Source of the DNA: Oscillospiraceae bacterium
Lineage (GTDB): Bacteria; Bacillota; Clostridia; Oscillospirales; Oscillospiraceae
DNA length: 64,000 bases
NCBI GenBank assembly: GCA_910575265.1
Contig: CAJTEA010000014.1
Location: forward strand, 1 to 64,000
Direction: 5' to 3'
The notes under the pieces are model-generated. The model was not told the DNA's origin. It did no database searches and was given only the letters and a program-made list of their open reading frames with translations. How positions within the stretch are numbered: position 1 is the stretch's first letter; every line of letters starts with the position of its first letter. The translations under genes and the position numbers were made by a program. This document shows positions 49,554 to 64,000 of this stretch, piece after piece.

Positions 49554-50045
49554 TTATACGGGTGGTTCCGCCCCCTCCCGCCAGCCCTTGCATACATCAA
49601 TCCACTCCAGGCTGTGGGAGTAACCGGCCAGCTCGTCGCAGGTCAGCTCGATGGCGGAGTTTCCGCTGCCGGCGGCGGGGAAGACGGTGTCAAAGCGTTT
49701 CAAAGACACATCCAGATAGGTACGCACACCCTCCGGATTGGCGAAGGGGCATACTCCGCCGACAGCGTGACCGGTAAAGGCGGACACCTGTTCCGGCGTG
49801 AGCATTTTTGCCTTGGTATGGAACGCGGCCTTGTACTTGGCGTTGTCAATCTTGGCGTCGCCGGCGGCCACAATAAGGACGCAGCCCTCGTCTACCAGAA
49901 AGGACAGGGTTTTGGCGATGCGGGCGGGGATGACCCCCACCGCCTGGGCGGCCAGCTCCACCGTAGCGCTGGATACGGGAAACTCCAAAATATCCCCCTC
50001 CCGGCCTAAAGGGCGGAAGTAGTCCCGGACTTTTTCGATGGACAT
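49554..50045 (-). CDS. YbaK/EbsC-type aminoacyl-tRNA deacylase
   Basis: This 163-residue protein matches the YbaK/ProX editing domain: VSSATVELAAQAVGVIPARI, AKTLSFLVDEGCVLIVAAGD, NAKYKAAFHTKAKMLT and TGHAVGGVCPFANPEGVRTY. It removes mischarged amino acids (for example Cys- or Ala-tRNA-Pro) in the cytoplasm. The conserved Lys and the GGVCPF loop are present. A thioesterase gene ends four bases before its start. Confidence 0.9.
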   Translation of the reverse strand: MSIEKVRDYFRPLGREGDILEFPVSSATVELAAQAVGVIPARIAKTLSFLVDEGCVLIVAAGDAKIDNAKYKAAFHTKAKMLTPEQVSAFTGHAVGGVCPFANPEGVRTYLDVSLKRFDTVFPAAGSGNSAIELTCDELAGYSHSLEWIDVCKGWREGAEPPV

Positions 50046-50048
50046 CCC

Positions 50049-50441
50049 TCAGCCCTCCAGCTTTTTTGCCGCCTTGGTCAGGAAGCGCTCATCGGTGATG
50101 ATAAACCGCTCGTGGGTGCCCTGGCCGATGAGGCCCTTCTCATCGTAAGCCGCTACCTTGAGCACCAGGCGCTTGCCGTCCACCTGGGTGATTTCGCTCT
50201 CCGCCCAGACCTTCATCCCCACAGGAGTGGCGCTGTCATGGGAGACGGTCAGTTTGGTTCCCACGGTGCTCTGTCCCGCCTCCAAACAGGGCGCAATCGA
50301 TTTCCAGGACGCCTCCTCCATCAGCGCGCACATAAATGGGGTGCCAAATACAGGCAGCGCCCCGGAACAGGCCGCCTGAGCCGTATTGCCAGCGGTGACG
50401 ACAGCTTCAGCCCGGCCTTTCAGACCTACAGTAATAGACAT
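50049..50441 (-). CDS. Hot-dog fold thioesterase (FlK-like)
   Basis: This 130-residue hot-dog protein has VFGTPFMCALMEEASWKSIA with the catalytic Glu region, STVGTKLTVSHDSATPVG and KRLVLKVAAYDEKGLIGQGT ending HERFIITDERF. The layout is that of fluoroacetyl-CoA thioesterase FlK and related acyl-CoA thioesterases. GGAGG lies eight bases before the ATG at 50441; longer upstream readings have no SD. The natural acyl-CoA substrate is unknown. Confidence 0.88.
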   Translation of the reverse strand: MSITVGLKGRAEAVVTAGNTAQAACSGALPVFGTPFMCALMEEASWKSIAPCLEAGQSTVGTKLTVSHDSATPVGMKVWAESEITQVDGKRLVLKVAAYDEKGLIGQGTHERFIITDERFLTKAAKKLEG

Positions 50442-50617
50442 TGCGGTTTCCTCCTTTGTGAATTGTCTGATTATATCACGAGGAAGTAAAAAAATCCAGT
50501 GGCGTATGGCACAATGAATTTGCCGCCCAAGCCTTCCACACGAAAATTTCGGACGGCAGAGCGAAAGACGAATACTAATTGTGTGCCGCGCATAAAAACA
50601 GACAGGAGGTGTCCGGA

Positions 50618-50875
50618 ATGGTGGACAGAAAAAAACCGAATACAATGCCAGAAGCAGATGCCGCGGAGGTGGAGGCTGGCACTTCGCCGGACCTTCCTGA
50701 TGTACCAATAGAAGGAGAAACCCCGGCACAGCGGCTGGAGCGTTACCCTGATCAGACAGGTGATCCATACTGTACGCGAGTGGGCCAGACGTCGGTAAGG
50801 CTCTTTTTTCACAATGAGGAAAAAACGCTGTCGGAAAAACTGAAGTACTATTTCTTGTCACTTATGGAACGATAA
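50618..50875 (+). CDS. Transposon-encoded protein TnpW-like
   Basis: This 85-residue protein has an acidic low-complexity N-terminus and a C-terminal module RVGQTSVRLFFHNEEKTLSE, then KLKYYFLSLMER. The module resembles TnpW, a small protein of clostridial mobile elements (pattern IG-TTY-V-VHF--TS-ET--DKI-RLI). AGGAGG lies eight bases before the ATG. It is isolated from other element genes and followed by a hairpin also linked to the IS3 remnant at 13.8 kb. Confidence 0.7.
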   Translation: MVDRKKPNTMPEADAAEVEAGTSPDLPDVPIEGETPAQRLERYPDQTGDPYCTRVGQTSVRLFFHNEEKTLSEKLKYYFLSLMER

Positions 50876-50922
50876 GATCAGCGCGGAAAGAATTTTCATT
50901 CCGTTTCTTGAACATATTATTA

Positions 50923-50958
50923 CCCCCTATGTAGTTCTTTTCCTACATAGGGGGCTTT
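50923..50958. terminator. Hairpin repeat after the TnpW-like gene
   Basis: Arms CCCCCTATGTA (50923-50933) and TACATAGGGGG (50944-50954) with loop GTTCTTTTCC, then CTTTTA. It can terminate the plus-strand gene. The loop sequence is shared with the hairpin at 13800-13835 in the opposite orientation. Confidence 0.62.
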
Positions 50959-51512
50959 TAATGATATCCGGATTTGGTATCCGGTACAGCGGAAAATTCT
51001 TCATGGATCAATATTCTGCCAGTGTCAGGTATTGGATATTGATTCGCCCTGGTCTCTTCCGCCGCTGGGTGGTTCCTGCTGCGGAAAAAACGTGGGGTTC
51101 AGCCAGCAAGACAGTTCCAGCCATTCCAAAGCCGAGAAATAGGGCTCCTTTGGAGCGGAATGGATATTTGTCCATCCCATATCTGTAGTGTTGGAAACAG
51201 TGAGCTGAGCCAATTCGGCTTCCAAATGCATTTATGCCTGGTAAAGTGCAAAAAATGTATCCTCGCGCATTTCATAGTATCTCAAGCGATAGGAGTCACA
51301 GGGGGTAAATGAGACAATTGACAAGTGGTGATCTCGCTGGTATGCTTTTTATAAAATCTCTCCCTTTTCCTGCCCGTCAATTTCCGGTACCGCACGTAAA
51401 TTTTCCGTGTCTTACCGTCAGTGCCGATCTGCCTTCGCGGTTCAGAAATTTCTTTTGTTCTCGCGTTGGCGGCAATTTTTACGATTGCTGCCCTAAAAAA
51501 TTTTCCCGGACC
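50959..51512. other. Long intergenic region, no gene found
   Basis: About 550 bases lower in GC than their surroundings hold no ORF with a credible SD. A frame joined to the sigma factor extends upstream to 51309 but lacks an SD and has an atypical composition. GATATCCGG-like direct repeats lie near 50962 and 50976. The region may be an eroded insertion. Confidence 0.45.
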
Positions 51513-51539
51513 TGTAACAGTTGGGATTATCTTGCCGTC
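51513..51539 (+). promoter_or_regulatory. ECF-type promoter, probably autoregulated
   Basis: TGTAAC and CGTC are 17 bp apart. AAC in the -35 and CGTC in the -10 are the hallmarks of ECF sigma promoters. It lies 43 bases before an ECF sigma gene, which implies autoregulation. Confidence 0.68.
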
Positions 51540-51581
51540 ATATTTATAAGAGGCAGTATGTGTTGCTGTGAGGGAGGCTAT

Positions 51582-52148
51582 ATGAGTAAAGACGAAGAAA
51601 TCATAGCGTTGTTTTTTTCGCGGGCAGAGGAGGCGATCGCTCATGCCCAGGAAGCGTACGGAGCGCTGTGCCAGTCCGTGATCCAGCGTATCCTCCCGGA
51701 CCAGCGGGACGTAGAGGAGTGCGTCAACGATACTTATCTGCGCGTTTGGAACGCGATCCCGCCGGAGCGGCCTGGCTCCCTGCGCGCGTATATGGCCAGG
51801 ATCGCCCGAAATCTGGCGCTGGACCGGTACAGTTACAATTCGGCGGCTCGAAGGAGCACCGCTTTGACCGAGGCCTTTGGGGAGCTGGAGCCCTGGCTGC
51901 CAGCCTATGTGGGAGACCCGGTCTCCGCCGCTGAAAACCAGCACCTTCAACAGGTGTTGAATGCTTTCCTGCGCGCGCAGTCCAGCGAGGCCAGGCGTTT
52001 TTTCCTGCGTCGGTATTGGTACGGCGAGAACAGCCGTGAGATTGCGGAGAGCTGTCAGGTCAGCGAGGCGAAGGTCAGGACCACGTTATTCCGCACCCGG
52101 GAACGTCTCCGCGGCACTCTGGAAAAGGAGGGATTCCAATATGAATAG
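51582..52148 (+). CDS. ECF-type RNA polymerase sigma factor
   Basis: This 188-residue protein has sigma region 2 (VIQRILPDQRDVEECVNDTY, LRVWNAIPPERPGSLRAYMA) and region 4 (FFLRRYWYGENSREIAESCQ, VSEAKVRTTLFRTRERLRGT). Region 3 is absent, as in ECF sigmas. The ATG at 51582 has GGGAGG four bases before it. The gene overlaps the next, which encodes a membrane protein likely to be its anti-sigma factor. An ECF-type promoter lies upstream. Confidence 0.9.
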   Translation: MSKDEEIIALFFSRAEEAIAHAQEAYGALCQSVIQRILPDQRDVEECVNDTYLRVWNAIPPERPGSLRAYMARIARNLALDRYSYNSAARRSTALTEAFGELEPWLPAYVGDPVSAAENQHLQQVLNAFLRAQSSEARRFFLRRYWYGENSREIAESCQVSEAKVRTTLFRTRERLRGTLEKEGFQYE

Positions 52149-53124
52149 CGTATTGTTTCAGCTTTTGATGAGGGCTGTGGACGACGATCTGCTGGAGGAG
52201 GTACAGCGTCCGGCAAAAAAGGTCCGGCTATGGCCTCGGCTTGTGGGAATCGCGGGACTCGCGGCGGCCTGTATCCTTATAGTGATCTCCCTATATGGCT
52301 GGCCTCACACTGAGGAGAACCCGTTTCCCATCAAAAGTCCGCCGGCAACGGACGAGGCCAGCGAGGCGGCGTTTGCGGAGATTCAGCGGCTTGGCTACAC
52401 GCTGCCGGTTCCCGGCGGCGCTCGGGATGTCTCCTATGCCCTGGTGGACGGCGGCTTTGATGATATGCCCATGGCGGAGGTCACCTACAAGAGCGGCGGT
52501 CGCGTCTATTCCTGCCGCGCCTTAAAGGCCCAACAGGCGGCGGATATTTCCGGCCTGGATCAGGAGTGGACCCAAAGCCTGGACTGGAAGGCTGGAACGC
52601 TGCAAATGCAGCTGCGCCAGTCGGATACAGACGCCTGGGTCGGCTGGTACGCACCGGACGCCGGTATCCAGTGGTGTCTCCGCGGTGGGGAGGACGGGCT
52701 GTCCCTGCTCCATACAGCGCAGGAGCTTCTGGATACCCTGGGCTACGGCGTCGCGGTCGCTCCGGAACAGGCGGAGGATATCCTTTACAACGCCTTCGAG
52801 CTGAACGGGCTTACGGTCGGAGAGACAGAGTTTGTCCTGGATGGCGTCCGCTACGCCTACCGCATGGCACAAACCTGGGCGGTGGATCAGGACTTCGCCG
52901 ACATCTCCGGTCTGGACGGGAGCTTCCAGCACGAGCTGGAGGGTGAAATCGCATGGTGCCCGGCCAGGCTGTATTACGACGACGGAGGAGCCGGCAAGGC
53001 CGTCTGGTTTGACGTGGTGCCGGGACTTCTGTATAGCTTGAGCATGGACCGGGACGCGTCGGAAGAGGCGCTGCTGGAGATGGCCAATCAGCTGTTCGCC
53101 CCGGCCCAGGGGGATGTGGGATAG
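52141..53124 (+). CDS. Putative membrane anti-sigma factor with duplicated extracellular domain
   Basis: This 327-residue protein has a short cytoplasmic N-terminus (about 35 residues, MNSVLFQLLMRAVDDDLLEE), one transmembrane helix (LVGIAGLAAACILIVISLYG) and an outer part. The outer part contains two related units: one with AEVTYKSGGRVYSCRALKAQ, ADISGLDQEWTQSLD and IQWCLRGGEDGLS, the other with RYAYRMAQTWAVDQD, FADISGLDGSFQHELEGEIA and GKAVWFDVVPGLLYSLSM. It overlaps the sigma gene by eight bases after AAGGAGG. Control of the sigma factor is inferred from topology and position. Confidence 0.72.
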   Translation: MNSVLFQLLMRAVDDDLLEEVQRPAKKVRLWPRLVGIAGLAAACILIVISLYGWPHTEENPFPIKSPPATDEASEAAFAEIQRLGYTLPVPGGARDVSYALVDGGFDDMPMAEVTYKSGGRVYSCRALKAQQAADISGLDQEWTQSLDWKAGTLQMQLRQSDTDAWVGWYAPDAGIQWCLRGGEDGLSLLHTAQELLDTLGYGVAVAPEQAEDILYNAFELNGLTVGETEFVLDGVRYAYRMAQTWAVDQDFADISGLDGSFQHELEGEIAWCPARLYYDDGGAGKAVWFDVVPGLLYSLSMDRDASEEALLEMANQLFAPAQGDVG

Positions 53125-53129
53125 TCGGT

Positions 53130-53489
53130 CTATTTCCGCCCCAAATATTTGGAAAAATCGCTGATTACGTTGGAAAGCAGGAGCAGCTCTTTGAGGCCGT
53201 AGCCGTTGAGCTCTCTGGTGATCCGTGACAGCTCTAAATCGCGCTCTGTGGTATAGGTCTCTCCGGCGATACGCTTGTTTTCGTCGGAGAGGCCCAGCAG
53301 ATAGTCGATGGATATGTTGAGCGTGACGCCCAGCTTGTAGAGCGTGGGCAGAGCGGGGGCCTTGCGCCCCGCTTCGATTTCCCACAGGAAATTGCGGGAG
53401 ATCCCCAGCTTTTCCGACAGAGCTTCCAGGGTCAGCCCCTGCCGCTTTCGCTCTAATTTAATTTTTCCGCCCAAAGCTGACAAATCCAT
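53130..53489 (-). CDS. XRE family helix-turn-helix regulator
   Basis: This 119-residue protein has an N-terminal XRE helix-turn-helix (LERKRQGLTLEALSEKLGIS, RNFLWEIEAGRKAPALPTLY). The C-terminal helical extension (RITRELNGYGLKELLLLSNV, then ISDFSKYLGRK) probably aids dimerisation. It ends five bases from the convergent anti-sigma gene. Targets are unknown, although the upstream operon promoter at 53583 is close enough to be controlled. Confidence 0.9.
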   Translation of the reverse strand: MDLSALGGKIKLERKRQGLTLEALSEKLGISRNFLWEIEAGRKAPALPTLYKLGVTLNISIDYLLGLSDENKRIAGETYTTERDLELSRITRELNGYGLKELLLLSNVISDFSKYLGRK

Positions 53490-53582
53490 ACCCAGTACAC
53501 CCTCAAATGATCTTACTGTTCAATTTTATATCTTATAGCAAGAAAATAAACCAGCGATTAGCTGGAAAAATCAAGAAATATA

Positions 53583-53611
53583 TTGCAATTAGATAGAAAA
53601 ACGGGTATAAT
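53583..53611 (+). promoter_or_regulatory. SigA promoter of the VTC-CotH-GT2 operon
   Basis: TTGCAA and a perfect TATAAT separated by 17 bp. It starts a leader of about 165 bases before the VTC gene. Confidence 0.87.
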
Positions 53612-53635
53612 GGCGGTCTGGAAGGAGTTGGAACA

Positions 53636-53749
53636 ATGGATATAAGCGTGGTCCCCTTCACGCCGTCTCCTTGCCGCGGAGAAGAATCATTCGTTTCCAC
53701 TGGTGGAAACTGTCTTTTACAAGTAAAAGACAGGGCGTTTCAAAAATGA
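53636..53749 (+). CDS. 37-residue leader ORF
   Basis: An ATG eight bases after AAGGAG opens MDISVVPFTPSPCRGEESFV, then STGGNCLLQVKDRAFQK, and stops 32 bases before the VTC gene. Two perfect dyads lie inside it. It may be a regulatory leader peptide, a dispersed repeat that happens to be open, or a microprotein. No homology is recognised. Confidence 0.5.
   Translation: MDISVVPFTPSPCRGEESFVSTGGNCLLQVKDRAFQK
53693..53733. promoter_or_regulatory. Tandem perfect dyads in the operon leader
   Basis: GTTTCCACTGGTGGAAAC (53693-53710) is followed directly by a 24-bp palindrome with arms CTGTCTTTTAC and GTAAAAGACAG (53710-53733). In RNA they form two stacked hairpins. In DNA they could bind regulators such as the adjacent XRE protein. 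Confidence 0.55.
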
Positions 53750-53781
53750 CCGGATAGCGCCATAATCGGGGGACGTCGATC

Positions 53782-54477
53782 ATGAACGAGGTGCTGAGAC
53801 AAGAGAAAAAATATCTGCTGACAGCGGCGGACGCTCAAAGCTTTGGGGCGTACCTGGGCGGTGTGATGCTTCAGGACGAGCACAACGGCCCTCAGGGCTA
53901 CTCCATCCGGTCGCTGTACTTTGATACTCTCAACGACGGGGACTACTGGGACAAAATGGACGGCGTGGAGCTGCGGCGGAAGATCCGCCTGCGGGTCTAC
54001 AGCCCCTCGGCCAGCTTTGGTATGCTGGAGATGAAGCAAAAGGAGGGGCCCTACCAAAAAAAGCGCTCCCTGCGCCTGGAGCGGGGGGACGCCTGCCAGC
54101 TGTGCCGGGGGGAATATGAGCCGCTGCTGAAGTACCGGGAGCCCTTCGCCGCTGAGTGCTACGGCCTGATGCGTTACAAGTGCTACCAGCCCCGGACGGT
54201 GGTGGAGTACCGCCGCAGGGCCTTTATCGCCAAGGAAAACCGCATCCGCGTCACCCTGGACAGCCAGATCACCGCCACCGAGGCGGCCTGGAATGTATTC
54301 GATCCCAATCTGGTCCAATACCCGGTTTTGGACCCCTTCCATGTGGTGCTGGAGGTCAAATTCAACGGTTTCCTGCTCAGCTACATCAAGGATCTGGTGG
54401 GGGCGGTCAACCGGTCTGAATTTTCCCAGAGCAAATACTGTCTGGCCCGGAGCGTGGGCCTGCGCTTTCAAGCATAG
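53782..54477 (+). CDS. VTC domain protein (polyphosphate polymerase-like)
   Basis: This 231-residue protein is a CYTH-like tunnel-fold VTC domain: RQEKKYLLTAADAQSFGAYL, YSIRSLYFDTLNDGDYWDKM, RRKIRLRVYSPS, FGMLEMKQKEGPYQKKRSLR and YRRRAFIAKENRIRVTLDSQ. FHVVLEVKFNGFLLSYIK follows near the end. The basic residues lining the tunnel and the acidic metal residues in LEMKQKEG and LEVKF are as in yeast Vtc4, which makes polyphosphate from ATP. In bacteria this domain often accompanies DUF4956 and CotH. It is the first large gene of a seven-gene operon. Confidence 0.87.
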   Translation: MNEVLRQEKKYLLTAADAQSFGAYLGGVMLQDEHNGPQGYSIRSLYFDTLNDGDYWDKMDGVELRRKIRLRVYSPSASFGMLEMKQKEGPYQKKRSLRLERGDACQLCRGEYEPLLKYREPFAAECYGLMRYKCYQPRTVVEYRRRAFIAKENRIRVTLDSQITATEAAWNVFDPNLVQYPVLDPFHVVLEVKFNGFLLSYIKDLVGAVNRSEFSQSKYCLARSVGLRFQA

Positions 54478-54489
54478 GAGTGATACCCC

Positions 54490-55167
54490 ATGAGACGACA
54501 GCTGTTTGAGATGTTCGGCTCGTCTAACGACCTGGCCCCCGAGACTATCGTCACTCGGCTGGCCGCCGCTTCCATTATCGCCTGTTTTATCTTTTTGTCC
54601 TACAGAATTTCCCATTTAGGAAGCATCTACAGCAAAAAGTTCAACGTTTCTCTGGTGGCGCTGACCGTCATCACCACCACGGTCATGATCGTCATCGGCA
54701 ACAACCTGGCCATGTCCTTGGGTATGGTGGGCGCGCTGTCCATCGTCCGGTTCCGTACGGCGGTGAAGGATTCCCGGGATACCATGTACATCTTCTGGGC
54801 CATCACGGTTGGCATCTGCTGCGGCGCGGGGGACTACTTCACCGCGGCGGCGGGAAGCTCCACCGCGTTTCTCCTGCTTCTGCTGTTCGGCCAGGTGAAA
54901 AACGACAACCGGGTGCTGCTGATTATCCGCACCGCCCGGATAAACGAGGCCCGGGTGGAGGCGGCGATCTTCCAATATTTTTCCCGAAAGGCGAATCTCC
55001 GGGTGAAGAACACCACCGAGAACAGCGTGGAGTTTATCTATGAGCTGAACAAAAAGCTGCTGGATCGAAAACGGGGCGGTGAGAACAGTATTACCGATGA
55101 AATTTACAGCATCGGCAATATCGACTATTTCAACATTGTCACCCAGAACGACGACATCAGCAGCTAA
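54490..55167 (+). CDS. DUF4956 membrane protein
   Basis: This 225-residue protein has three or four transmembrane helices (VTRLAAASIIACFIFLSYRI, VSLVALTVITTTVMIVIGNN, TMYIFWAITVGICCGAGDYF, SSTAFLLLLLFGQ). The highly conserved GMVGALSIVRFRTAVKDSRD is the DUF4956 hallmark. A cytoplasmic C-terminal domain follows. Its constant association with VTC-domain proteins suggests a membrane anchor or channel for polyphosphate or a related polymer. It starts 12 bases after the VTC gene. Confidence 0.88.
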   Translation: MRRQLFEMFGSSNDLAPETIVTRLAAASIIACFIFLSYRISHLGSIYSKKFNVSLVALTVITTTVMIVIGNNLAMSLGMVGALSIVRFRTAVKDSRDTMYIFWAITVGICCGAGDYFTAAAGSSTAFLLLLLFGQVKNDNRVLLIIRTARINEARVEAAIFQYFSRKANLRVKNTTENSVEFIYELNKKLLDRKRGGENSITDEIYSIGNIDYFNIVTQNDDISS

Positions 55168-55185
55168 CGGGCCAAGGAGCGGAGC

Positions 55186-56664
55186 ATGAGGTACAAATTG
55201 ATGGGATTTGCCGGAATCGCGCTCATCCTGCTGGCCGCCGCCGCGGCCAACGCCCTGGAGCCCGCTGTGGAGACAAACCACCGGATTCACCAGCACCTCA
55301 CCGCCCGGCGGGATACCGGGTGTGACTGCGGCGGGACCGGGCTGTGCTCCCACCTGCCTCTGGTTATCATCAACACCGGGGGACAGGAAATACCGGGGCA
55401 GCTGACAGATGAGGTTGACGGCTTCGCGCAGAGAGTCTATTCCACAGCGGATGACGGCGGCTCCACCATTCAGGTGGAGGTCAAGGTGATCGACAATCAG
55501 GACCGGAACAATCACCCCGGCGACCCGCCGGCTGTTGAAACAGGCAGTGAGTTTCGGGTCCGAGGCTATTCGTCCCGATATTATGAGAAACTTTCCTATT
55601 TATTGAAGTTTTCGGGCGAGGATGGAAGGCATCAAGATATTTCCGTGATGGGGATGGACGCACATTTTGAGTGGGCGCTTCATGGCCCGATTATCGATAA
55701 AACTTTGATCCGCAACTATATGTGGTACAACATCTCAGGTGAAATCATGCGCTACGCCCCGAACTGCCGTTTTTGCGAGGTGATGCTGGACGGAGAATAC
55801 CAGGGCGTCTATTTGATGACGGAGACCATCACGGACGGGGAGAACTGCCGCCTGAATCTGAGCGTGAATGTGAAAAATTCACAGGCTACCGGTTTCCTGC
55901 TTCGTATGGACCGGCCCAACGAGGCGGAGCTGGAAACGATTCGGGATATATACTCCTATGCGGAACGAGTCAACCGGGTATTTCAGGATATCGCGATCCG
56001 CTTTCCGGGAAAAACCAGGCTGACGGAGGAAGTGAAGCAAGCGATTGAACTGAACTACGCGGCCTTTGAAAAGTCGCTGTACTCTTATGACTATGCCACG
56101 GGGCGGTACGCGTACTGGAATTGGATTGATACAGATAATTTTGTGGATTATTACCTTATCAACGAGTTTGTCCAGAACTTTGACATGGGTGCCTATTCCA
56201 CCTATATCTACAAAGAGCCGGGGGAGCCGTACCGGCTGTGCGTTTGGGATTTTGACAACTCCCTGGGAAACTTTCCCCTTGCCGTCGATCTGCCGGACAA
56301 GTATCTGCTGAACGAGCGGGCATGGTATGTGATGCTGTTTAAAAATGAGGCCTTTGTCCAGCGGGTTCTGGAGCGGTATGGGGAGCTGAGGGAGAGCTGG
56401 TTGAACGAGGCGTATCTGCTGAGCTACATCGACCAGGTGGTGGAATACCTGGGTCCGGCGGCGGAGCGGAACAACCAACGCTGGGCGGACCAAATCGCCA
56501 ACTGGGAGGGCCTGGGTTCGGACAAGGAAAATCCCCACAGCTTTGAGGAGGCGGTGGAGATGATGAAATCCCGGATTATTCAGCGGGGCGGCTGGATGGA
56601 TGAGACCATCCACAGCCTCCAGCAGCACTGCCACCCCTCCCGGAATAAAAAATATAACCACTGA
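55186..56664 (+). CDS. CotH kinase family protein
   Basis: This 492-residue protein has a signal or anchor helix (LMGFAGIALILLAAAAANAL). A CotH core follows: EFRVRGYSSRYYEKLSYLLK, HGPIIDKTLIRNYMWYNISG, CRFCEVMLDGEYQGVYLMTE and DYYLINEFVQNFDMGAYSTY. The metal-binding LCVWDFDNSLGNFPL comes later. CotH is an atypical secreted kinase; in Bacillus it phosphorylates spore coat proteins. Here it is outside the membrane and probably phosphorylates surface proteins or glycans. Its stop overlaps the next ATG by one base (TGATG). Confidence 0.9.
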   Translation: MRYKLMGFAGIALILLAAAAANALEPAVETNHRIHQHLTARRDTGCDCGGTGLCSHLPLVIINTGGQEIPGQLTDEVDGFAQRVYSTADDGGSTIQVEVKVIDNQDRNNHPGDPPAVETGSEFRVRGYSSRYYEKLSYLLKFSGEDGRHQDISVMGMDAHFEWALHGPIIDKTLIRNYMWYNISGEIMRYAPNCRFCEVMLDGEYQGVYLMTETITDGENCRLNLSVNVKNSQATGFLLRMDRPNEAELETIRDIYSYAERVNRVFQDIAIRFPGKTRLTEEVKQAIELNYAAFEKSLYSYDYATGRYAYWNWIDTDNFVDYYLINEFVQNFDMGAYSTYIYKEPGEPYRLCVWDFDNSLGNFPLAVDLPDKYLLNERAWYVMLFKNEAFVQRVLERYGELRESWLNEAYLLSYIDQVVEYLGPAAERNNQRWADQIANWEGLGSDKENPHSFEEAVEMMKSRIIQRGGWMDETIHSLQQHCHPSRNKKYNH

Positions 56665-58946
56665 TGCTTATGAAAAAATTTATCCTGGCGGCCTGCGCCG
56701 TCGTACTGCTGCTTTTCGCGGGCTATACGGCCTACTATCGCTTCGGCGTCTATTTTGACCTCCACCCGGACGAGCCGGTGACAACGTTTATGAAAACCGA
56801 GGGAACCTCCATTCTCATGGAGCGGGAGGGGGAGTACCTCCCCTTTGAGATACGGGGCGTCAACATGGGCGCGGGCATCCCCGGCGAGTGGGCCACCAGC
56901 TACGCCATCGACAAGGAGACCTATCTGCGCTGGTTTGGGCAGATTCAGGAGCTGGGGGCTAACACCGTCCGCGTGTATACTATCCTTCAGGACGATTTTT
57001 ACAACGCCTTCTACCAGTACAACCGGGAGCGGGAGGAAAACGGCGAGGAGCCTCTCTGGCTGATCCACGGGGTCTGGGTCAACGACTACATGCAGAACTC
57101 CCACCGGGAGGCCTTTGACGAGGAGCTGCTGGAAACCCTTATGCGGGACAGCAAGAGGGTAGTGGACATCCTCCATGGACAGAAGGACCTGTCCCTGAGG
57201 CGTGGGCTGGGCTCCGGGAGCTACCGGAAGGACGTCTCCCCCTGGGTGATCGGCTATATCATCGGCGTGGAGTGGGAAAACACCCTGGTGGTCTACACCA
57301 ATCAGGCCGACGGGGCGCTGAGCTCCTACGAGGGGGATTATCTCTACACCGCGGAGGACGCCACCCCCTTTGAGGCCTTCCTGTGCCGGGCGGGGGATGC
57401 CATGATCGCCTATGAAAGCGCCCGCTATAAACAGCAGCGGCTGGTGGCCTTCTCCAACTGGCCCACCACCGATCCCTTCTCCTACCCTGTGACCGTGGCT
57501 TACGGCCGGGAAAAATTCGCCTGCGTCAACGTGGAGCACATCAAGAGCAAAGAGACTTTTCAGTCCGGGATGTTCGCCTCCTACCACGTCTACCCCTATT
57601 TCCCGGATTATCTGGAGCTCCTGCGCCGGGGGGAGGAGCTGGGGGACTCGGAAATCACCCGGCGGCTGGGGGCGACCATCCAGGCCACGCTGGAATACCG
57701 CCAGTCCAAGCTGAACGCCCCCAGCGTTCTGGATTACCTGCGGGACGCCGACTACTACGACTACCTGGGCCGGTACAACACCTATATCGCCTATCTGCGG
57801 GCGCTGAACCGCTTTCACACCTTACCTGTGGTAATCTCGGAGTACGGGGTGTCCACTGGCCGGGGGATAGCCCAGGAGGATGCGAACACCGGCCGCGATC
57901 AGGGCCACATGACCGAGCGGGAACAGGGCCAGGCCGCCATCGACTGCTACCGGGATATTATGGACGCCGGCTGCGCCGGGAGCTGTCTGTTTACCTGGCA
58001 GGACGAGTGGTTCAAGCGGACCTGGAACACCATGCACGCCGTTGACCTGGACAAGACGCCATACTGGAGCGACTACCAGACCAACGAGCAGTATTTCGGC
58101 CTGCTGGCATTTGATCCGGGGAAGGAGGAGAGCGTCTGCTATGTGGACGGGGACCTGTCCGAATGGACGGAGGCGGACCGGGTGATCGCGCGCGGCGGCA
58201 TGGAGCTGTCCATGAAGTACGACGAGAAGTTTCTCTACTTTCTGGTGAAAAAACCGGGCTTCGACCCGGTAACCGACACGCTTTATATCCCCATCGACAC
58301 CACGCCCAAGACAGGCGGCACTTACTGCCAAACCTATAACGTGGCTTTTGAGCGGGCCTGTGACTTTCTGGTGGTCATCCAGGGGCGGGAAAACAGCCGG
58401 GTGATGGTCCAGCAGAGGTATGAGGTCCTCCGCTCCACCTATGCCTATGACTACTACACCGAGGACCCCTACATCAGCCCGCCGGAGAAGGACACCCCGG
58501 TCTTTGTGAACATCTATCTCCCCCTGATTCAGCGGGACTTTCTGCGGGACCCGGACCAAACGGAACCCAGCGGCACCAAATTTGACACCGGAGCCCTGCG
58601 CTATGGAAACGCCAATCCGGAGGCGGAGGACTTCGATTCCCTGGCCGACTTCATCTTCACCGGGGATTTTGTGGAAATTCGCCTGCCCTGGCAGCTGCTG
58701 AACTTCTCCAACCCCTCTGAGATGATGATTCACGATGACTACTATGAGTGCTACGGGGTGGAAAATCTCCACATCGGCGAGATGTATGTGGGCGTGGGCT
58801 GCTATGGAGAAACTGAGAACCCGATCCCCATGGCCTCATTCCCGCTGAAGGGTTGGGGGAAAAAAACCACCGCCCACGAGCGGCTGAAGCGGTCGTACTA
58901 TATTTTGCGGGACTACTGGACTCAACTGGACGAATCAGGGAGGTGA
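56664..58946 (+). CDS. Membrane-anchored glycosidase-like protein with TIM barrel
   Basis: This 760-residue protein has an N-terminal anchor (MKKFILAACAVVLLLFAGYT). A clan A-like TIM barrel follows with FEIRGVNMGAGIPGEWATSY, WFGQIQELGANTVRVYTILQ, WVIGYIIGVEWEN (possible acid/base Glu), ASYHVYPYFPDYLELL and PVVISEYGVSTGRG (probable nucleophile Glu). From about residue 490 a beta-rich domain resembles a carbohydrate-binding module (YVDGDLSEWTEADRVIARGG). It probably trims or binds the polymer made by the neighbouring GT2. Translation is coupled to CotH through TGATG. Confidence 0.78.
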   Translation: MLMKKFILAACAVVLLLFAGYTAYYRFGVYFDLHPDEPVTTFMKTEGTSILMEREGEYLPFEIRGVNMGAGIPGEWATSYAIDKETYLRWFGQIQELGANTVRVYTILQDDFYNAFYQYNREREENGEEPLWLIHGVWVNDYMQNSHREAFDEELLETLMRDSKRVVDILHGQKDLSLRRGLGSGSYRKDVSPWVIGYIIGVEWENTLVVYTNQADGALSSYEGDYLYTAEDATPFEAFLCRAGDAMIAYESARYKQQRLVAFSNWPTTDPFSYPVTVAYGREKFACVNVEHIKSKETFQSGMFASYHVYPYFPDYLELLRRGEELGDSEITRRLGATIQATLEYRQSKLNAPSVLDYLRDADYYDYLGRYNTYIAYLRALNRFHTLPVVISEYGVSTGRGIAQEDANTGRDQGHMTEREQGQAAIDCYRDIMDAGCAGSCLFTWQDEWFKRTWNTMHAVDLDKTPYWSDYQTNEQYFGLLAFDPGKEESVCYVDGDLSEWTEADRVIARGGMELSMKYDEKFLYFLVKKPGFDPVTDTLYIPIDTTPKTGGTYCQTYNVAFERACDFLVVIQGRENSRVMVQQRYEVLRSTYAYDYYTEDPYISPPEKDTPVFVNIYLPLIQRDFLRDPDQTEPSGTKFDTGALRYGNANPEAEDFDSLADFIFTGDFVEIRLPWQLLNFSNPSEMMIHDDYYECYGVENLHIGEMYVGVGCYGETENPIPMASFPLKGWGKKTTAHERLKRSYYILRDYWTQLDESGR

Positions 58947-58952
58947 CCGGCT

Positions 58953-60065
58953 TTGGGGAGCGAGGCGCTCTTATACGGCTATACTGCGGTGTGCGTGAGT
59001 ATGCTGATCTTCAATCTGCTCTACTACTTCTCCCTCAACCGCCGGGACCGCAGGATGGGGCGGGTGAGCAAACGCCTCCAGACTCAGGTGGACCGCCAGC
59101 TGGCGCGGCTGCGGTGGGGAGGAGCGGTGGAGCGTCGCCATCTGCTCTATCTAGAGCGCAAGCTGTCCCGCGTGGCCAACCTGACCGCCTTTGAGCGGAT
59201 GATGACCCAACGCCGGGAGGCGGACGGGGAAGCCGCCTCAGAGCTGCTGGAATACGAACGGCAAATCCAGCCGGTGATCCTCCATCTGGCCGTGGTCTAT
59301 CGGAGGAAGGAGGACATCCAGGCGGCCTACTTTGCCTGGTTTCTGGCCAGGCACCAGACCAACCGGCACATGGAGCTGGACGGAGTGCAGGACATTCTGG
59401 TGGACTACATGAATCAGGACAGCCTGTACTGTCGGGTCAACGCCTTTCAGGCGCTGTGCCGGATGGGCAGTCCCCGGCGCGTGGCCGACGCGGTGACTGT
59501 TCTGGACCGAAACGGGAAATTTTTTCATAGCAAGCTGCTCACTGACAGCCTGCTTTCCTTTACCGGCGGCAAGCGGGCGCTGGCCGCCCTGCTGCTGGAG
59601 CGGTTCGACAGCTTTTCCACTCAGACCAGGCTGTCCATCCTCAACTACATCCGCTTCCACTCCGGGGACTACCGCGGATGGGTGCTTCCGCTGATGAACG
59701 ATCCGGAGGAGGATAAAGAGCTGCGGCTGTCGGCCATCCGATATTTTGGGCGGTATGTCTATCCCCCCGCCAAGCCGGCCCTGCTGGCCTTTGCCGCCGA
59801 TAGGGACCCGCTGCGCTGGGAGTACGCGGCGGTCAGTGTCTCCGCACTGGCTATCTATGATGGAACGGACGTGACGGAGGCGCTGACTGGAGCGGTTTGC
59901 AGCTCCAACTGGTATGTGCGCTCCAACGCGGCGGTCAGTCTGACCGCCCGGGGACTGGACGGCGGCCTGTCCGCCGCGGCGGAGGGCGGCGACCAATACG
60001 CACGGGAGATGATGCGCTATCAGCTTCAGCTCCGGCAGGCCAGGAAGGAGGGGGCGGCGGTATGA
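58953..60065 (+). CDS. Membrane-anchored HEAT-repeat protein
   Basis: This 370-residue protein has one N-terminal transmembrane helix (LYGYTAVCVSMLIFNLLYYF), a basic helical linker and an array of HEAT-like repeats: YCRVNAFQALCRMGSPRRVA, ELRLSAIRYFGRYVYPPAKP, LRWEYAAVSVSALAIYDGTD and WYVRSNAAVSLTARGLDGGL. It is likely a cytoplasmic scaffold at the membrane. The start is TTG after GGGAGG. Its stop overlaps the GT2 start by four bases, suggesting a stoichiometric complex with the synthase. Confidence 0.82.
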   Translation: MGSEALLYGYTAVCVSMLIFNLLYYFSLNRRDRRMGRVSKRLQTQVDRQLARLRWGGAVERRHLLYLERKLSRVANLTAFERMMTQRREADGEAASELLEYERQIQPVILHLAVVYRRKEDIQAAYFAWFLARHQTNRHMELDGVQDILVDYMNQDSLYCRVNAFQALCRMGSPRRVADAVTVLDRNGKFFHSKLLTDSLLSFTGGKRALAALLLERFDSFSTQTRLSILNYIRFHSGDYRGWVLPLMNDPEEDKELRLSAIRYFGRYVYPPAKPALLAFAADRDPLRWEYAAVSVSALAIYDGTDVTEALTGAVCSSNWYVRSNAAVSLTARGLDGGLSAAAEGGDQYAREMMRYQLQLRQARKEGAAV

Positions 60066-61477
60066 TCCGGGAGCTGATCCAGACCTTTTTAAGCGCTGTG
60101 GGCGTCTTTTACGTGCTGTATATGATGGGCTACGCCAGCTTTCTGTTCCTGTCGGTGACGGTGGGCTCCGCCACTCTCTACGGCTCCAAGCGGCGCAATC
60201 ATCTGAAAAACGAGCTGGAGGGCGGGCACTATGTTCCTGTGACTATCGTGGTGCCCGCCCACAACGAGAGCGTGACCATCGAGTCCTCCGTCCGTTCTCT
60301 GGCCATGCTGGACTACCAGTCCTACGAGATCGTTGTGGTGGACGACGGCTCCTCCGACGACACCAGCCAGATTCTGGTGGACGCCTTTCAGATGGTCCGG
60401 GTGGACCGGCCCATTTGGCGGCGGCTGCGCTGCCAGCCGGCGGAGGCGGTCTATGAGACCTGGAACAGCCGGGTGCCCATCACCCTCATCCGAAAGCGTA
60501 ACGGCGGCAAGGCGGACGCCCTAAACATGGGAATCAACGCCTCCCGCTACCCCTATTTCCTGTGTATGGACGCCGACTCCGTCCTTCAGCGGGACTCGCT
60601 GGAGAAAATCGTCCGCCCGGTGCTGGAGGACGACCGGGTGGTGGCGGTGGGCGGTTCTGTCCGCCCCTGCAACGGTGCGGAAATCCGGGACGGCGCGGTG
60701 GTGAACTACCGGATGCCCCGAAAGCTGCTGCCCTGTATGCAGGTGCTGGAGTACGACCGCTCCTTTCTGGCCGCCCGGATCCTCTTTGACCAGTTCAACG
60801 GCAGCATCATCATCTCTGGGGCCTTCGGTCTGTTTAAAAAGAGCGCCGTCATCGACGCCGGGGGTTACGACGCCACCACGGTGGGGGAGGATATGGAACT
60901 GGTCATGCGGCTGCATGTCTTTTGTCGGGAGCACTCCATCCCCTACCGGGTGCGCTACGCCACCGACGCCATCTGCTGGACCCAGGCCCCGGAGAAGCTG
61001 GGGGACCTGTGCAAGCAGCGGCGGCGCTGGCATATCGGACTATACCAGAGCATGACGCGGCACCGGAATATTTTGTTCGACCTGAAATACGGTATGGTGG
61101 GCTTTATTTCCTGTCTATATTTTCTGCTCTATGAGCTGTTTTCCCCTTATATCGAGGTGTTCGGCGTGCTGGTAACCGCGCTGTCCTGGGCGGTGGATTT
61201 TTTGAATGTTCCCTTTATGCTGCTGTATATGGGCGTCTATGTGCTGTACTCCTCCATCCTGTCGCTGACGGCCTTCTTCGCCCGAATTCATACCGTCGAC
61301 CTGAAGCTGTCTCTGGGCGATGTATGCAAGGCCATCGGGCTGTGCGTGGTGGAGGTATCCTGCCTGCGGTTCATCCTGGCCTGGGTTCGGGTGACCGCTC
61401 TGGGCCGGGGACGGGGCAAAAAGGCTGTATGGGGCCAGATCGAGCGCAAGCGGATCAATTTTGACCAGGGAAGTTAG
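60062..61477 (+). CDS. Processive GT2 glycosyltransferase (polysaccharide synthase-like)
   Basis: This 471-residue membrane glycosyltransferase has an N-terminal helix and a GT-A domain with VPAHNESVTIESSVRSLAML and VVVDDGSSDDTSQ (first Asp). KRNGGKADALNMGINASRYP, FLCMDADSVLQ (DxD) and VGEDMELVMRLH (catalytic Asp) follow, then the QxxRW-type CKQRRRWHIGLYQSM. At least three C-terminal helices come after. This set marks BcsA/NodC/PgaC-type synthases that polymerise and extrude a polysaccharide. No PilZ domain is seen. The ATG overlaps the HEAT gene stop. Confidence 0.9.
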   Translation: MIRELIQTFLSAVGVFYVLYMMGYASFLFLSVTVGSATLYGSKRRNHLKNELEGGHYVPVTIVVPAHNESVTIESSVRSLAMLDYQSYEIVVVDDGSSDDTSQILVDAFQMVRVDRPIWRRLRCQPAEAVYETWNSRVPITLIRKRNGGKADALNMGINASRYPYFLCMDADSVLQRDSLEKIVRPVLEDDRVVAVGGSVRPCNGAEIRDGAVVNYRMPRKLLPCMQVLEYDRSFLAARILFDQFNGSIIISGAFGLFKKSAVIDAGGYDATTVGEDMELVMRLHVFCREHSIPYRVRYATDAICWTQAPEKLGDLCKQRRRWHIGLYQSMTRHRNILFDLKYGMVGFISCLYFLLYELFSPYIEVFGVLVTALSWAVDFLNVPFMLLYMGVYVLYSSILSLTAFFARIHTVDLKLSLGDVCKAIGLCVVEVSCLRFILAWVRVTALGRGRGKKAVWGQIERKRINFDQGS

Positions 61478-61504
61478 AAATAAGAGAGAAAGGATGCGGA
61501 TATT

Positions 61505-62047
61505 ATGCGGATGGATGAGCTGAAACGGGGCTTTTGGGGATATAAAAGGGACAGCGTCTACCACTATATCGTATCAGTGGAGGAAAAGGCCTCGGCCCGA
61601 CTGGCGGAGAAGGACGCCCGGCTGGAGAAGACAGAGGAGGAAGCCAAGCGGCGGGTCAGCGAGCTGGAGGCGGTGATCGCCTCTCTGCGGGAGGAGAACG
61701 CCTCCCTGCGGGAGAACCAGGCGACGGTGTTCTCCACCATGCTGGAGGCGCAGAAATACGCCGAACAGCTCCGGACGGACAGCGAGCGCCAAAGGCAGCA
61801 GACTCAGGAGCGGCTTGCCGCCGCCGTCCAACAAAAAAGCGGACAGTTGGATCGCTATCAGGAGCAAATTCACCAGCTTAGGGTCATAATTCGGGAGCTT
61901 TTGGAGGACTTCAACGGCAGATTGGAGGAGACGGAGCATGTACTGGTCCGTCTCACCGACCAGGTCCCCGGTGTGGAATTGGACACAGTCCCGTCCGGGC
62001 CGGACGAGGGCGGGAGCGAACTGTGGAAAAGGATATCATTTACATAA
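61505..62047 (+). CDS. DivIVA-like coiled-coil protein
   Basis: This 180-residue protein begins LKRGFWGYKRDSVYHYIVSV, like the DivIVA/GpsB membrane-binding start. A long coiled coil of about 110 residues follows (EKDARLEKTEEEAKRRVSEL, VIASLREENASLRENQATVF, RTDSERQRQQTQERLAAAVQ) and an acidic tail. Such proteins mark curved membranes and recruit envelope-synthesis enzymes. It is the last gene of the operon and could place the polymer synthase at septa or poles. Confidence 0.8.
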   Translation: MRMDELKRGFWGYKRDSVYHYIVSVEEKASARLAEKDARLEKTEEEAKRRVSELEAVIASLREENASLRENQATVFSTMLEAQKYAEQLRTDSERQRQQTQERLAAAVQQKSGQLDRYQEQIHQLRVIIRELLEDFNGRLEETEHVLVRLTDQVPGVELDTVPSGPDEGGSELWKRISFT

Positions 62048-62092
62048 CGGAACGGAGGCTCCGAGAGGCTGTCGAAAATCAAATAACGGTCT

Positions 62093-62135
62093 GGTGGTGA
62101 GCGAAGCTTTTTCGCTCACCACCGTTTTCTTTTTG
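62093..62135 (+). terminator. Strong terminator of the VTC-CotH-GT2 operon
   Basis: Stem GGTGGTGAGCGAA/TTCGCTCACCACC (62093-62105, 62111-62123) followed by GTTTTCTTTTT. Confidence 0.9.
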
Positions 62136-62150
62136 TGGGAGGTTTTGAAG

Positions 62151-62351
62151 ATGGTAACAACGCGCTTGGTGCCCCCGCGCGGCGGCAAGGAACGGAAGGA
62201 CAATGGTGTGATCGCCTACCACTTGCGGCGGTCTTTCAAGCCGGAAGAGATTACACCGGAGCAGGCAAGCAAGATCGGCTATGAGCACGCTATGCCGCTG
62301 ACAAAAGGCAATCATGCTTTTATCGTCTGTACCCAAGGGCGCTGGTTTTAA
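62151..62351 (+). pseudogene. Relaxase (Mob) remnant with internal deletion
   Basis: This 66-codon frame starts MVTTRLVPPRGG, the N-terminus of clostridial relaxases. It then jumps to NGVIAYHLRRSFKPEEITPE, QASKIGYEHAMPLTKGNHAF and IVCTQGRWF. In intact relaxases about 60 residues separate these parts, including the catalytic Tyr region. GGGAGG precedes the ATG, so a short peptide may still be made. The stop overlaps the convergent chemoreceptor stop. It is the trace of an integrated mobilisable element. Confidence 0.72.
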
Positions 62352-64000
62352 CTCAATTGAAACTGATGCACCAGATCGTTCATCCGCAGCGACTGATCCG
62401 ACAGCTCCCGCGCCGTAGCGGCGCTTTGCTCCGAAGTCGCCGAGGTGCTTTGAACAATGGAGGATATTTGTTCGATCCCCTCTGTAACCTGAGCGATCGC
62501 GGTGGTCTGCCCTCCAACGGCTTCTACCATTGCGCTCATTTTGGCGGTCACATTTTCTGCGATTGTGCTGGTCGCGTCCAGCGATCCCGTCACCTTCTCA
62601 AATACCTGGCCGCCCTCCGCGACAGCGGCGATAGAAGCCTCGATCAGTTCCTTGGTCGCCTTGGCCGCCTCATCAGATTTGGAGGCTAGATTACGCACCT
62701 CATCGGCTACCACAGCAAAGCCTTTGCCTGCGCTGCCCGCCCGGGCCGCCTCTACAGCGGCATTCAATGCCAAGATATTTGTCTGAAACGCGATATTCTC
62801 AATCGTGTCAATAATTTTACTGATTTCCGTGGACGAACCGGAGATTCTCCGCATCGCGGTATTCAGCTCCTTGACATAGTCTACACAGATCCCAAGCTGT
62901 GTTCCCACCTGCGTCACAAAATCTCCCGCTTCCTCCGCGGTGGAAACGGTCTGGTTCGCGCTCTCCGCGATGCTGGCGGCGGTGAAGGAAAGTTCCTGAA
63001 CGGCGCTGGTCTGCTCTGTGGCCCCCTGGCTCAGAGACTGCGCGCTGTTGGATACCTGAACGGCGCTGCTGGCCACGGCTCCGGCGGATTGACTGATCTG
63101 GGAAAGCGTATGCCGCAGAGAACTGTGGATCGCCTTGATGGACTGCTCCATGGTCACAAAATCTCCCCAGTATGTACGGGTGATATTCTCGCGGAAATCT
63201 CCCCGCGCCATTTTTCCCAGGTGGTGAGACGCGTCCTGGAGCACGTCGTTCAGGCGGAGAATCGTCGTGTCCAGCGCCATTGTCAGCTTGGCGGTCTCAT
63301 CCTTGGAGCGGGCCACTGGGGTCGGCGAGCGCAGATCGCCGTCTGCCAGCTGCTCCAGCCGGACAACGCAGGACTGGATGGGGCCGGAAATGGACTGTCC
63401 CACCTTGACCGCCACGGGAAAAGTGGCCAGCACAACAAGAAGCACTACCAAGACCGTCAGCATAATGCTGCGGTCCAGTGTGGACTTGAATTCCCGCTGG
63501 CTGGCCTCTATGGCGATGCTCCACTTCTGATAACCTCCAATGGGGGCGAAACCAACGAATTTATTGTCCCCATAAAAGTTGTAGGCCCCGAAGCCGGTCT
63601 CCCCCTGGAGCATACGCTGGTTTACGGCGGCCACATCAGCTACGCTGGAGTCTGTTTTCGCGGTCTCGATCATGTTGGAACCCGACTCCACGATGGCGGC
63701 GTCCCGATGGCCGATGACATTGCCCCGGTGGTCCAGCACATAGGCCACGCCATCGCGGCCCATGGACAGGTCAACTACGATGTCCGACAGGAAATCCGCG
63801 CTGATCCCGCCGTAAACGATGCCGTCAAAGCGGCCGTTGGTAAGGATGGGGACCTCAAGCAGGAAGATCATCTGCTGGCCGTCGTTCATAATATCGGAGA
63901 TGTAGGGCTGCATAGTGGCCTTACACTGCTGGAAATAATCTTCCTCCGCGTAGCTGTAGCCTGTGGAGGAAAAGCCGTTGGCATCCATTTTCCCCGTGTA
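62348..64000 (-). CDS. Methyl-accepting chemotaxis protein (partial at right edge)
   Basis: The visible 550 residues start inside a dCache sensor domain ([60 protein letters not shown]). A transmembrane helix ([20 protein letters not shown]), a HAMP domain and the signalling coiled coil follow, with the hairpin tip [20 protein letters not shown] then [20 protein letters not shown]. Methylation helices flank it. The frame continues upstream of the ATG at 63988 to the window edge, so the N-terminal anchor is missing. It senses an extracellular ligand; the end of the gene overlaps the relaxase remnant. Confidence 0.92.

Follow-up and report, generated by a model that had tools for sequence, protein, structure and literature searches.

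We analysed a 64,000-nucleotide stretch of DNA from an Oscillospiraceae bacterium (positions 1 to 64,000 of contig CAJTEA010000014.1, assembly GCA_910575265.1; the whole stretch is hereafter called the window), in which seven intact open reading frames on the forward strand form a putative operon. The genes encode, in order, a VTC-domain protein (53782..54477; PF09359, E-value 3.3e-39), a DUF4956 membrane protein (54490..55167; Pfam, 1e-13), a CotH-type kinase-like protein (55186..56664; PF08757, 4e-47), a membrane-anchored glycosidase- or transglycosidase-like protein of 760 residues (56664..58946), a HEAT-repeat protein (58953..60065; PF13646 (HEAT_2), 2e-9), a glycosyltransferase family 2 (GT2) polysaccharide synthase (60062..61477, the start being taken as the ATG at 60062; Pfam, 2e-26) and a coiled-coil protein with a weakly DivIVA-like N-terminus (61505..62047; PF05103, 1e-4, under the cut-off). 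A preliminary description, made from the sequence alone, had reported tight packing with several stop-start overlaps. The packing was confirmed by the intergenic spacing (12 bases, 18 bases, an overlap, 6 bases, an overlap and 27 bases), and the overlaps were two, namely CotH/glycosidase-like (TGATG) and HEAT/GT2 (ATGA). The ratio of nonsynonymous to synonymous substitution (dN/dS) was 0.08-0.26 for all seven genes when the window was compared with L054, a relative that is 86% identical in the glycosidase-like protein.

A sigma-70-type promoter-like site, TTGCAA-17-TATAAT, was found upstream of the genes on the same strand (53583..53611; 10 of 12 matches). It had previously been read as the one promoter of the operon; the site is present, but alone it is weak evidence because 12 such sites were observed in positions 50000-64000, the region scanned for promoters and terminators, and 6.3 were expected by chance. 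The leader (53612..53781, forward strand) contains two inverted repeats, the first found by the scan and the second by eye. The repeats at 53693-53731 had no match in Rfam, and inspection of the L054 leader by eye did not reveal them. The previously described strong terminator was present at 62092..62124 on the forward strand, where 15 pairs, the most of any in the scan, are followed by a T run.

Relatives were collected with the 760-residue glycosidase-like protein, and none of the other six gene products, as bait. In a one-genome-per-species collection, 581 of 587 candidate stretches encoded a bait relative, and the best 80 of the 581 were examined; their best bait segments were 54-86% identical, kinship between contigs was ignored, and some are near copies. 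The denominators 63, 66, 72 and 73 given for these 80 are the loci with enough flanking DNA for the test in question. In 63 of 66 loci, the order VTC-DUF4956-CotH-glycosidase-HEAT-GT2 was preserved exactly; the first three genes were directly upstream of the bait in 69/72 and HEAT-GT2 directly downstream in 73/73. The three exceptions were L084 (no VTC, DUF4956 or CotH gene), L087 (CotH alone) and L098 (a disturbed VTC/DUF4956 frame). The DivIVA-like gene was present in 40/63. We also found the six-gene set in Paenibacillus agaridevorans (L129) and on a plasmid of Planococcus maritimus XJ11 (L256), in agreement with the earlier view that these genes belong together. The distribution of the bait was patchy: counting the window's own genome, it occurred in 22 of the 295 order genomes and in 23 of the 398 phylum-sample genomes. 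The full six-gene core was seen in one further phylum-sample match, L195. The gene set is not a local feature but is widespread in bacteria.

Protein families of the seven products

VTC, DUF4956, CotH, HEAT_2 and GT2 all exceeded their Pfam cut-offs, and the family labels given to these five proteins in the preliminary description were retained. The DivIVA label fell under its cut-off (22.2 bits vs 28), and the 760-residue protein had no Pfam match of its own. None of the seven proteins was named above cut-off by NCBIfam.

The GT2 protein contained DD, DxD, ED and QRRRW motifs together with several hydrophobic segments, the combination by which it is placed among the processive-type membrane synthases. 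These motifs were invariant in 47 of 47 rows, except for one Arg/Lys and one Val/Ile position. Its best NCBIfam match was PgaC/IcaA (147.9 bits vs a cut-off of 422.3), and the match to CelA reached 41.4 bits vs a cut-off of 699.1. The preceding HEAT protein has a weak N-terminal hydrophobic segment. In the DivIVA-like protein, F-x-G-Y and V were common to five aligned rows.

The glycosidase-like protein begins with an N-terminal hydrophobic anchor, and its putative assignment as a glycoside hydrolase rests on remote profile matches. Glyco_hydro_72 was matched by 26 of 57 aligned bait-family members at E up to 1 (best 1.2e-5), the window's own protein not being among them, and the bait-family profile matched a glycoside hydrolase family 2 (GH2)-like structure with an E-value of 8e-5. 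Glu205 and Glu393 were invariant in all 57 rows. Glu393 aligned with a Glu of the GH2-like structure 9fz9; the same position is Ala in 9g4n, which is presumably an inactive mutant.

In the VTC-domain protein, E8, K10, R43, R66, R69, R71, K85, K87, R145, E191, K193 and K218 were invariant in seven aligned rows, and we take these charged residues to line the catalytic tunnel. A phmmer search gave no solved structural relative of this protein, and the sequence profile of DUF4956 likewise gave none. The predicted model of the DUF4956 protein, of moderate confidence (mean predicted local distance difference test score, 76.5), consists of a helical N-terminal part followed by an α/β domain. This model is in keeping with the four transmembrane segments and ACT domain published for SIR_1592 (PMC12345266; this and the other papers cited here are represented by excerpts).

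The CotH-type protein matched the structure of spore coat protein H, 5jd9, with an E-value of 0.003. It carries an N-terminal hydrophobic segment and the Trp-Asp motif, and W354, D355 and N362 were conserved in at least 97% of 75 rows. A Cys pair before x-His-Leu-Pro (window positions ~55300-55360) was found in 81 of the 86 CotH frames that are 450 residues or longer in L034-L133 and the window (a few contigs are counted twice), and in 0 of 34 CotH proteins of the phylum sample, core locus L195 included. The pair is thus characteristic of this type of operon, and it is a possible metal site or disulfide.

Two modules and links to c-di-GMP in relatives

The operon joins a glycosidase-HEAT-GT2 synthase module with a second module, the trio of VTC, DUF4956 and CotH. 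The glycosidase-like, HEAT and GT2 genes are a unit of their own, since the three co-occur without the trio. We found them so in nine of 20 phylum-sample loci drawn by the bait, L258-L277 (L258, L259, L260, L264, L267, L268, L269, L272 and L277; another gene order is seen in L260, L264, L269 and L272), in L046, L050 and L053, and on a Paenibacillus cellulosilyticus plasmid. Outside Bacillota, plasmid pRadio2 of Deinococcus radiophilus (L257) carries a glycosidase-like gene annotated as a tetratricopeptide repeat protein, followed by HEAT and GT2 genes. Clusters of another form (L038, L047, L048, L049, L051 and L052) encode a glycosidase-like protein of ~1000 residues, HEAT, GT2 and two further glycosidase-like copies of ~730 residues; VTC, DUF4956 and CotH were not recognised in these six. 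The L048 cluster has an HD_5 gene upstream and a weak DivIVA-like gene downstream.

For the other module, DUF4956 was found in 64 of the 398 phylum genomes (74 matches), and all matches except the window were used to draw a separate set of 73 loci (1.18 Mb). VTC was present in 71 of these DUF4956-drawn loci and CotH, by the core profile, in 34, and the six-gene core was seen only in L195. VTC-DUF4956 is thus mostly stand-alone in the phylum sample. Many of the stand-alone copies in L169-L241 lie beside a response-regulator-like gene of ~225 residues, recognised by profile only, and a gene of ~410-450 residues on the opposite strand, which are possibly a two-component pair.

Several DUF4956-drawn loci contained other synthases. 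In L201:8021-18001, the trio is followed by MBOAT, AlgX-like, metallo-beta-lactamase-fold, GT2 with PilZ and glycoside hydrolase family 5 cellulase genes; by these family matches it is joined to a cellulose-type synthase operon. L192 encodes GT2, a leucine-rich repeat protein and a DHHW/AlgX-like protein upstream of the trio, L190 resembles it as judged by gene order only, and L212 has a GT4-GT2 protein downstream. In L208 and L217, an above-cut-off PelF lies within 8 kb of VTC-DUF4956, and CotH was not recognised by the core profile. We built a quick tree of VTC plus DUF4956 from 97 rows, which has long branches and SH-like approximate likelihood-ratio (SH-aLRT) support without bootstrap. A branch with SH-aLRT 99 separated off the 27 core rows (the window, 24 loci selected from the 80, L195 and L256). 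These joined L201, with its PilZ synthase, and the GT2-linked L190 and L192 (SH-aLRT 99), and the two Pel-linked rows stood apart from all of these and from each other. From this grouping, the trio probably joined the present synthase once and Pel separately.

The relatives also revealed links to the second messenger cyclic di-GMP (c-di-GMP). A GGDEF-EAL-type gene (~610 residues) was next after the operon in 53 of 63 loci, as counted by profile with fragments included, such as a 119-residue piece in L058. Pfam domains were checked in L097 and L129 only, giving EAL at 4e-60 and 1e-60 and GGDEF at 2e-9 and 2e-8, respectively; the L129 protein additionally has an SBP_bac_3-like region just under the cut-off. 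Some loci have HD-type and further GGDEF genes nearby. In L129 (16675-17556), the GGDEF-EAL gene is followed by one for a 294-residue protein that has no Pfam match and has relatives in 22 of the searched loci.

An Rfam scan of 30 loci found the c-di-GMP-I riboswitch in 11 and c-di-GMP-II in 2. Models trained on these 13 loci, which themselves sit within the 80 then scanned, gave 32 class I and 6 class II matches (38/80), with no locus having both. Thirty-five of the 38 lie at the VTC start, between 292 bases upstream of the longest frame and 53 bases within it, and one precedes the disturbed VTC/DUF4956 frame of L098; the remaining two, in L112 (other strand) and L103 (1.7 kb away), are misfits. 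Class I matches were also found in the trio-less clusters L049, L051 and L255, and no c-di-GMP riboswitch was found in the 73 DUF4956-drawn loci, core locus L195 included. An R2 search over L034-L053 and L255-L277 gave one chance-level match. That riboswitches from two unrelated classes precede one and the same gene argues that c-di-GMP control has been selected in these carriers, and it makes this control directly testable in vitro.

Proposed function and alternatives

Both the processive-type GT2 and the ties to c-di-GMP seen in relatives suggest a surface polysaccharide, as had been proposed at the outset. We consider it likely that the window contains a synthase-dependent exopolysaccharide operon that is governed by c-di-GMP in many relatives and has an accessory module of phosphate chemistry. 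From the observed gene set, gene order, motifs and modules, and the riboswitches and GGDEF-EAL genes of relatives, we infer the following activities. The GT2 protein would polymerise a nucleotide sugar and extrude the chain via its own membrane helices, with the membrane-anchored HEAT protein as its putative cytoplasmic partner, and the anchored glycosidase-like protein would trim, transfer or hold the emerging chain outside the cell. In many relatives, c-di-GMP would act via a leader riboswitch (class I or II), a terminal sensory GGDEF-EAL protein, or both. The VTC-DUF4956-CotH trio would be a separate accessory module that tunes polymer amount or adhesion; VTC-DUF4956 perhaps makes an anionic phosphate product, and CotH perhaps phosphorylates a secreted partner. 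So read, the operon belongs to a familiar general class of exopolysaccharide operons, but its synthase pair is unstudied and its accessory module is one of putative phosphate chemistry. The preliminary description had all seven genes acting as one surface-polymer machine; the genes do go together, but it overlooked the riboswitches and GGDEF-EAL gene of relatives and the division into two modules. Its further proposals, namely polyphosphate synthesis, an action of CotH on the polymer, scaffolding by the HEAT protein and positioning by the DivIVA-like protein, are conjectural, the last for a gene present in only 40/63 loci.

Several results weigh against this interpretation. No PilZ or other c-di-GMP receptor was recognised by Pfam or NCBIfam among the seven proteins. 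The window has no c-di-GMP riboswitch by Rfam, which gave chance-level leader matches only, or by the trained class I and II models, and its genome has no EAL domain and no match to the GGDEF-EAL protein. A riboswitch was likewise not found in 42 of the 80 relatives, in L195 or in the Planococcus copy, and its absence from all 73 control loci may reflect lineages without such riboswitches. The gene set dissolves in more distant relatives: in the 20 loci of L258-L277, from 19 of the 23 phylum genomes, the trio was recognised in none, and HEAT and GT2 were both recognised in only nine and not in the other 11. Finally, in Streptococcus intermedius, Pel was still made without SIR_1591 to SIR_1594, and the excerpts report no change on deletion of SIR_1593, the polyphosphate polymerase (PMC12345266).

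Other results of the same study speak for the interpretation. Pel rose and aggregation fell when SIR_1592 (MgtC/ACT type, DUF4956-like) was deleted, and both fell when SIR_1594 (CotH) was deleted. The SIR_1591 protein has glycoside hydrolase activity (PMC12345266). CotH, poly-phosphate polymerase, DUF4956 and DUF4832 are described as pel accessory genes of streptococci and clostridia, with a diguanylate cyclase/phosphodiesterase in place of DUF4832 in bifidobacterial pel (PMC7112168). Beside the synthase, Gram-positive pelDEADAFG operons, as excerpted, carry accessory genes like those of the present operon and its relatives: CotH, polyphosphate polymerase and DUF4956, together with either a glycoside hydrolase (glycosidase-like here) or a dual diguanylate cyclase/phosphodiesterase; they differ in that the synthase is Pel there and GT2 with a HEAT partner here, and the accessory gene order may also differ. 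The authors of PMC12345266 state, in the text excerpted, that away from the Pel locus they did not find CotH, polyphosphate polymerase and DUF4956 in this syntenic arrangement. The loci described here, where the three lie side by side far from Pel, qualify this statement rather than flatly contradict it, because the gene order implied by the SIR locus tags is possibly not the one seen here.

The gene set itself is already in print, by names, order and lengths, as NELoc-2 of Clostridium perfringens, a locus of poultry disease strains to which no function was assigned in the excerpts and whose GT2 was called a chitin synthase (Lepp et al. 2010, PMC2879425). NELoc-2 consists of a sigma factor, a 348-residue protein, VTC, a 226-residue "tubulin/FtsZ" protein, a resolvase, a second VTC, a 222-residue gene product, CotH (497 residues), a 685-residue protein, HEAT (377 residues) and GT2 (466 residues). 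By published names and lengths, which were compared in place of sequence, the order is the same and the sizes are similar; the VTC pair is doubled and a resolvase added. We read the 222- and 226-residue products as DUF4956, judging by the published table. Further papers give NELoc-2 association, expression or gene lists and, as excerpted, no mechanism (PMC5504799, PMC5964661, PMC4983038, PMC5251324, PMC11677781), and the present interpretation offers a concrete hypothesis for this locus. In the open-licence literature searched, we found no description of VTC, DUF4956 and CotH together by those family names, no operon of polyphosphate polymerase domain, CotH and glycosyltransferase, and no report of riboswitch, CotH, c-di-GMP and polysaccharide; 'VTC domain' and CotH occurred together only in PMC2879425. 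The earlier remark that no characterised system has this gene set therefore holds for function in that literature, but not for the gene set, which by published names, order and lengths is in print as NELoc-2, or for the accessory trio, which is in print beside pel. What the present analysis adds is the link to c-di-GMP, the division into two modules and the occurrence of the trio next to synthases other than Pel. The Zetaproteobacteria stalk system was considered as a parallel and rejected; CotH is present and no VTC was found in the excerpted text (PMC8250860).

A more specific form of the proposal, which we put forward tentatively, is that the trio is a portable phosphate-decoration module attached repeatedly to Pel, cellulose-type, other GT2 and GT2-HEAT synthases. 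VTC-DUF4956 would make and export either a donor of phosphate or a short polyphosphate, and CotH, once secreted, would phosphorylate the glycan or its anchor protein, giving a phosphorylated biofilm polysaccharide whose synthesis is switched by c-di-GMP riboswitches in many carriers. Module swapping itself opens a route to the functions of VTC-like proteins and CotH in bacteria.

A different division of labour, in which the trio is the main business, appears improbable. The VTC-type enzyme and DUF4956 would then produce a phosphate polymer, either polyphosphate or a different one, and the part of GT2, HEAT and the glycosidase would be confined to adding a glycan to a surface or spore structure rich in phosphate. 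The conserved VTC residues and the mostly stand-alone occurrence of VTC-DUF4956, with VTC in 71 and CotH in 34 of the 73 loci, favour this idea. The yeast VTC polyphosphate polymerase shares the VTC domain; its layout combines SPX with its own membrane domain, and the membrane part here is the separate DUF4956 protein. However, glycosidase, HEAT and GT2 co-occur without the trio (9 of 20 distant loci and the Deinococcus plasmid), and c-di-GMP riboswitches were found in none of the DUF4956-drawn loci but, as class I, in the trio-less L049, L051 and L255.

It is very unlikely that we are dealing with a system for PNAG (Pga/Ica), cellulose (Bcs) or Pel to which unusual genes have been added. The best NCBIfam match of GT2 is indeed PgaC/IcaA, CelA gives 41 bits, and pel loci have the same three accessory families (PMC7112168). 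Like PgaC/IcaA, Bcs and other c-di-GMP-governed GT2 synthases, the operon has a membrane GT2 with a QxxRW-type motif and a glycosidase-like gene, and its relatives share the c-di-GMP link. Nevertheless, the PgaC/IcaA and CelA scores are far under the curated cut-offs; deacetylase, PilZ and PelF matches are absent among the seven proteins, and the best PelF match in the window genome (2.2e-7) is under the cut-off. Unlike those systems, the operon has a HEAT protein, and control in its relatives is at the RNA level. Equally hard to credit is a spore-coat or exosporium operon with CotH and a coat glycan made in sporulation, as suggested by the match to 5jd9 and the role of CotH as a spore-coat kinase in Bacillus (cited in PMC7112168), because CotH-like genes serve pel loci of non-sporulating streptococci (PMC7112168, PMC12345266), glycosidase-HEAT-GT2 occurs on a Deinococcus plasmid, and riboswitches for c-di-GMP upstream of VTC do not indicate control by sporulation. 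The exopolysaccharide reading is preferred. With 581 stretches encoding a bait relative, of which the best 80 were examined, it points to a probable system for a biofilm polysaccharide across many Clostridia, most of which are uncultured.

Control and surroundings of the window copy

The window genome (96% complete, 111 contigs) contained four GGDEF and two HD_5 places. No class I riboswitch was found in this genome among the 150 of 1166 candidates that were scored, and class II was not sought there. Both the riboswitch and the GGDEF-EAL gene were not found in L054; in L057, the next kin of L054 in the tree, the GGDEF-EAL gene was present and the riboswitch was not found. Because L057 keeps the gene and the window and L054 are without it, its loss in the window's line is likely. 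Since neither riboswitch nor GGDEF-EAL gene is there, control of the window copy probably rests on the promoter, perhaps together with an upstream sigma gene and its neighbour.

This sigma gene (51582..52148, forward strand) encodes an extracytoplasmic function-type sigma factor with Sigma70 regions 2 and 4 by Pfam, and a homologue precedes VTC in L054. The overlapping neighbour (52141..53124, forward strand) has no Pfam match and is a putative anti-sigma partner by position only; its homologue lies directly before VTC in L054. A small helix-turn-helix regulator on the reverse strand (53130-53489), between the sigma pair and VTC, was not found in L054. Directly after the terminator, 62145-62348 encodes a 68-residue piece of a relaxase, which matches positions 38-85 of the 132 in the MobA/VirD2-type profile. 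The piece is perhaps the scar of a mobilisable element, and such an element may have removed the eighth gene, GGDEF-EAL, from the window operon.

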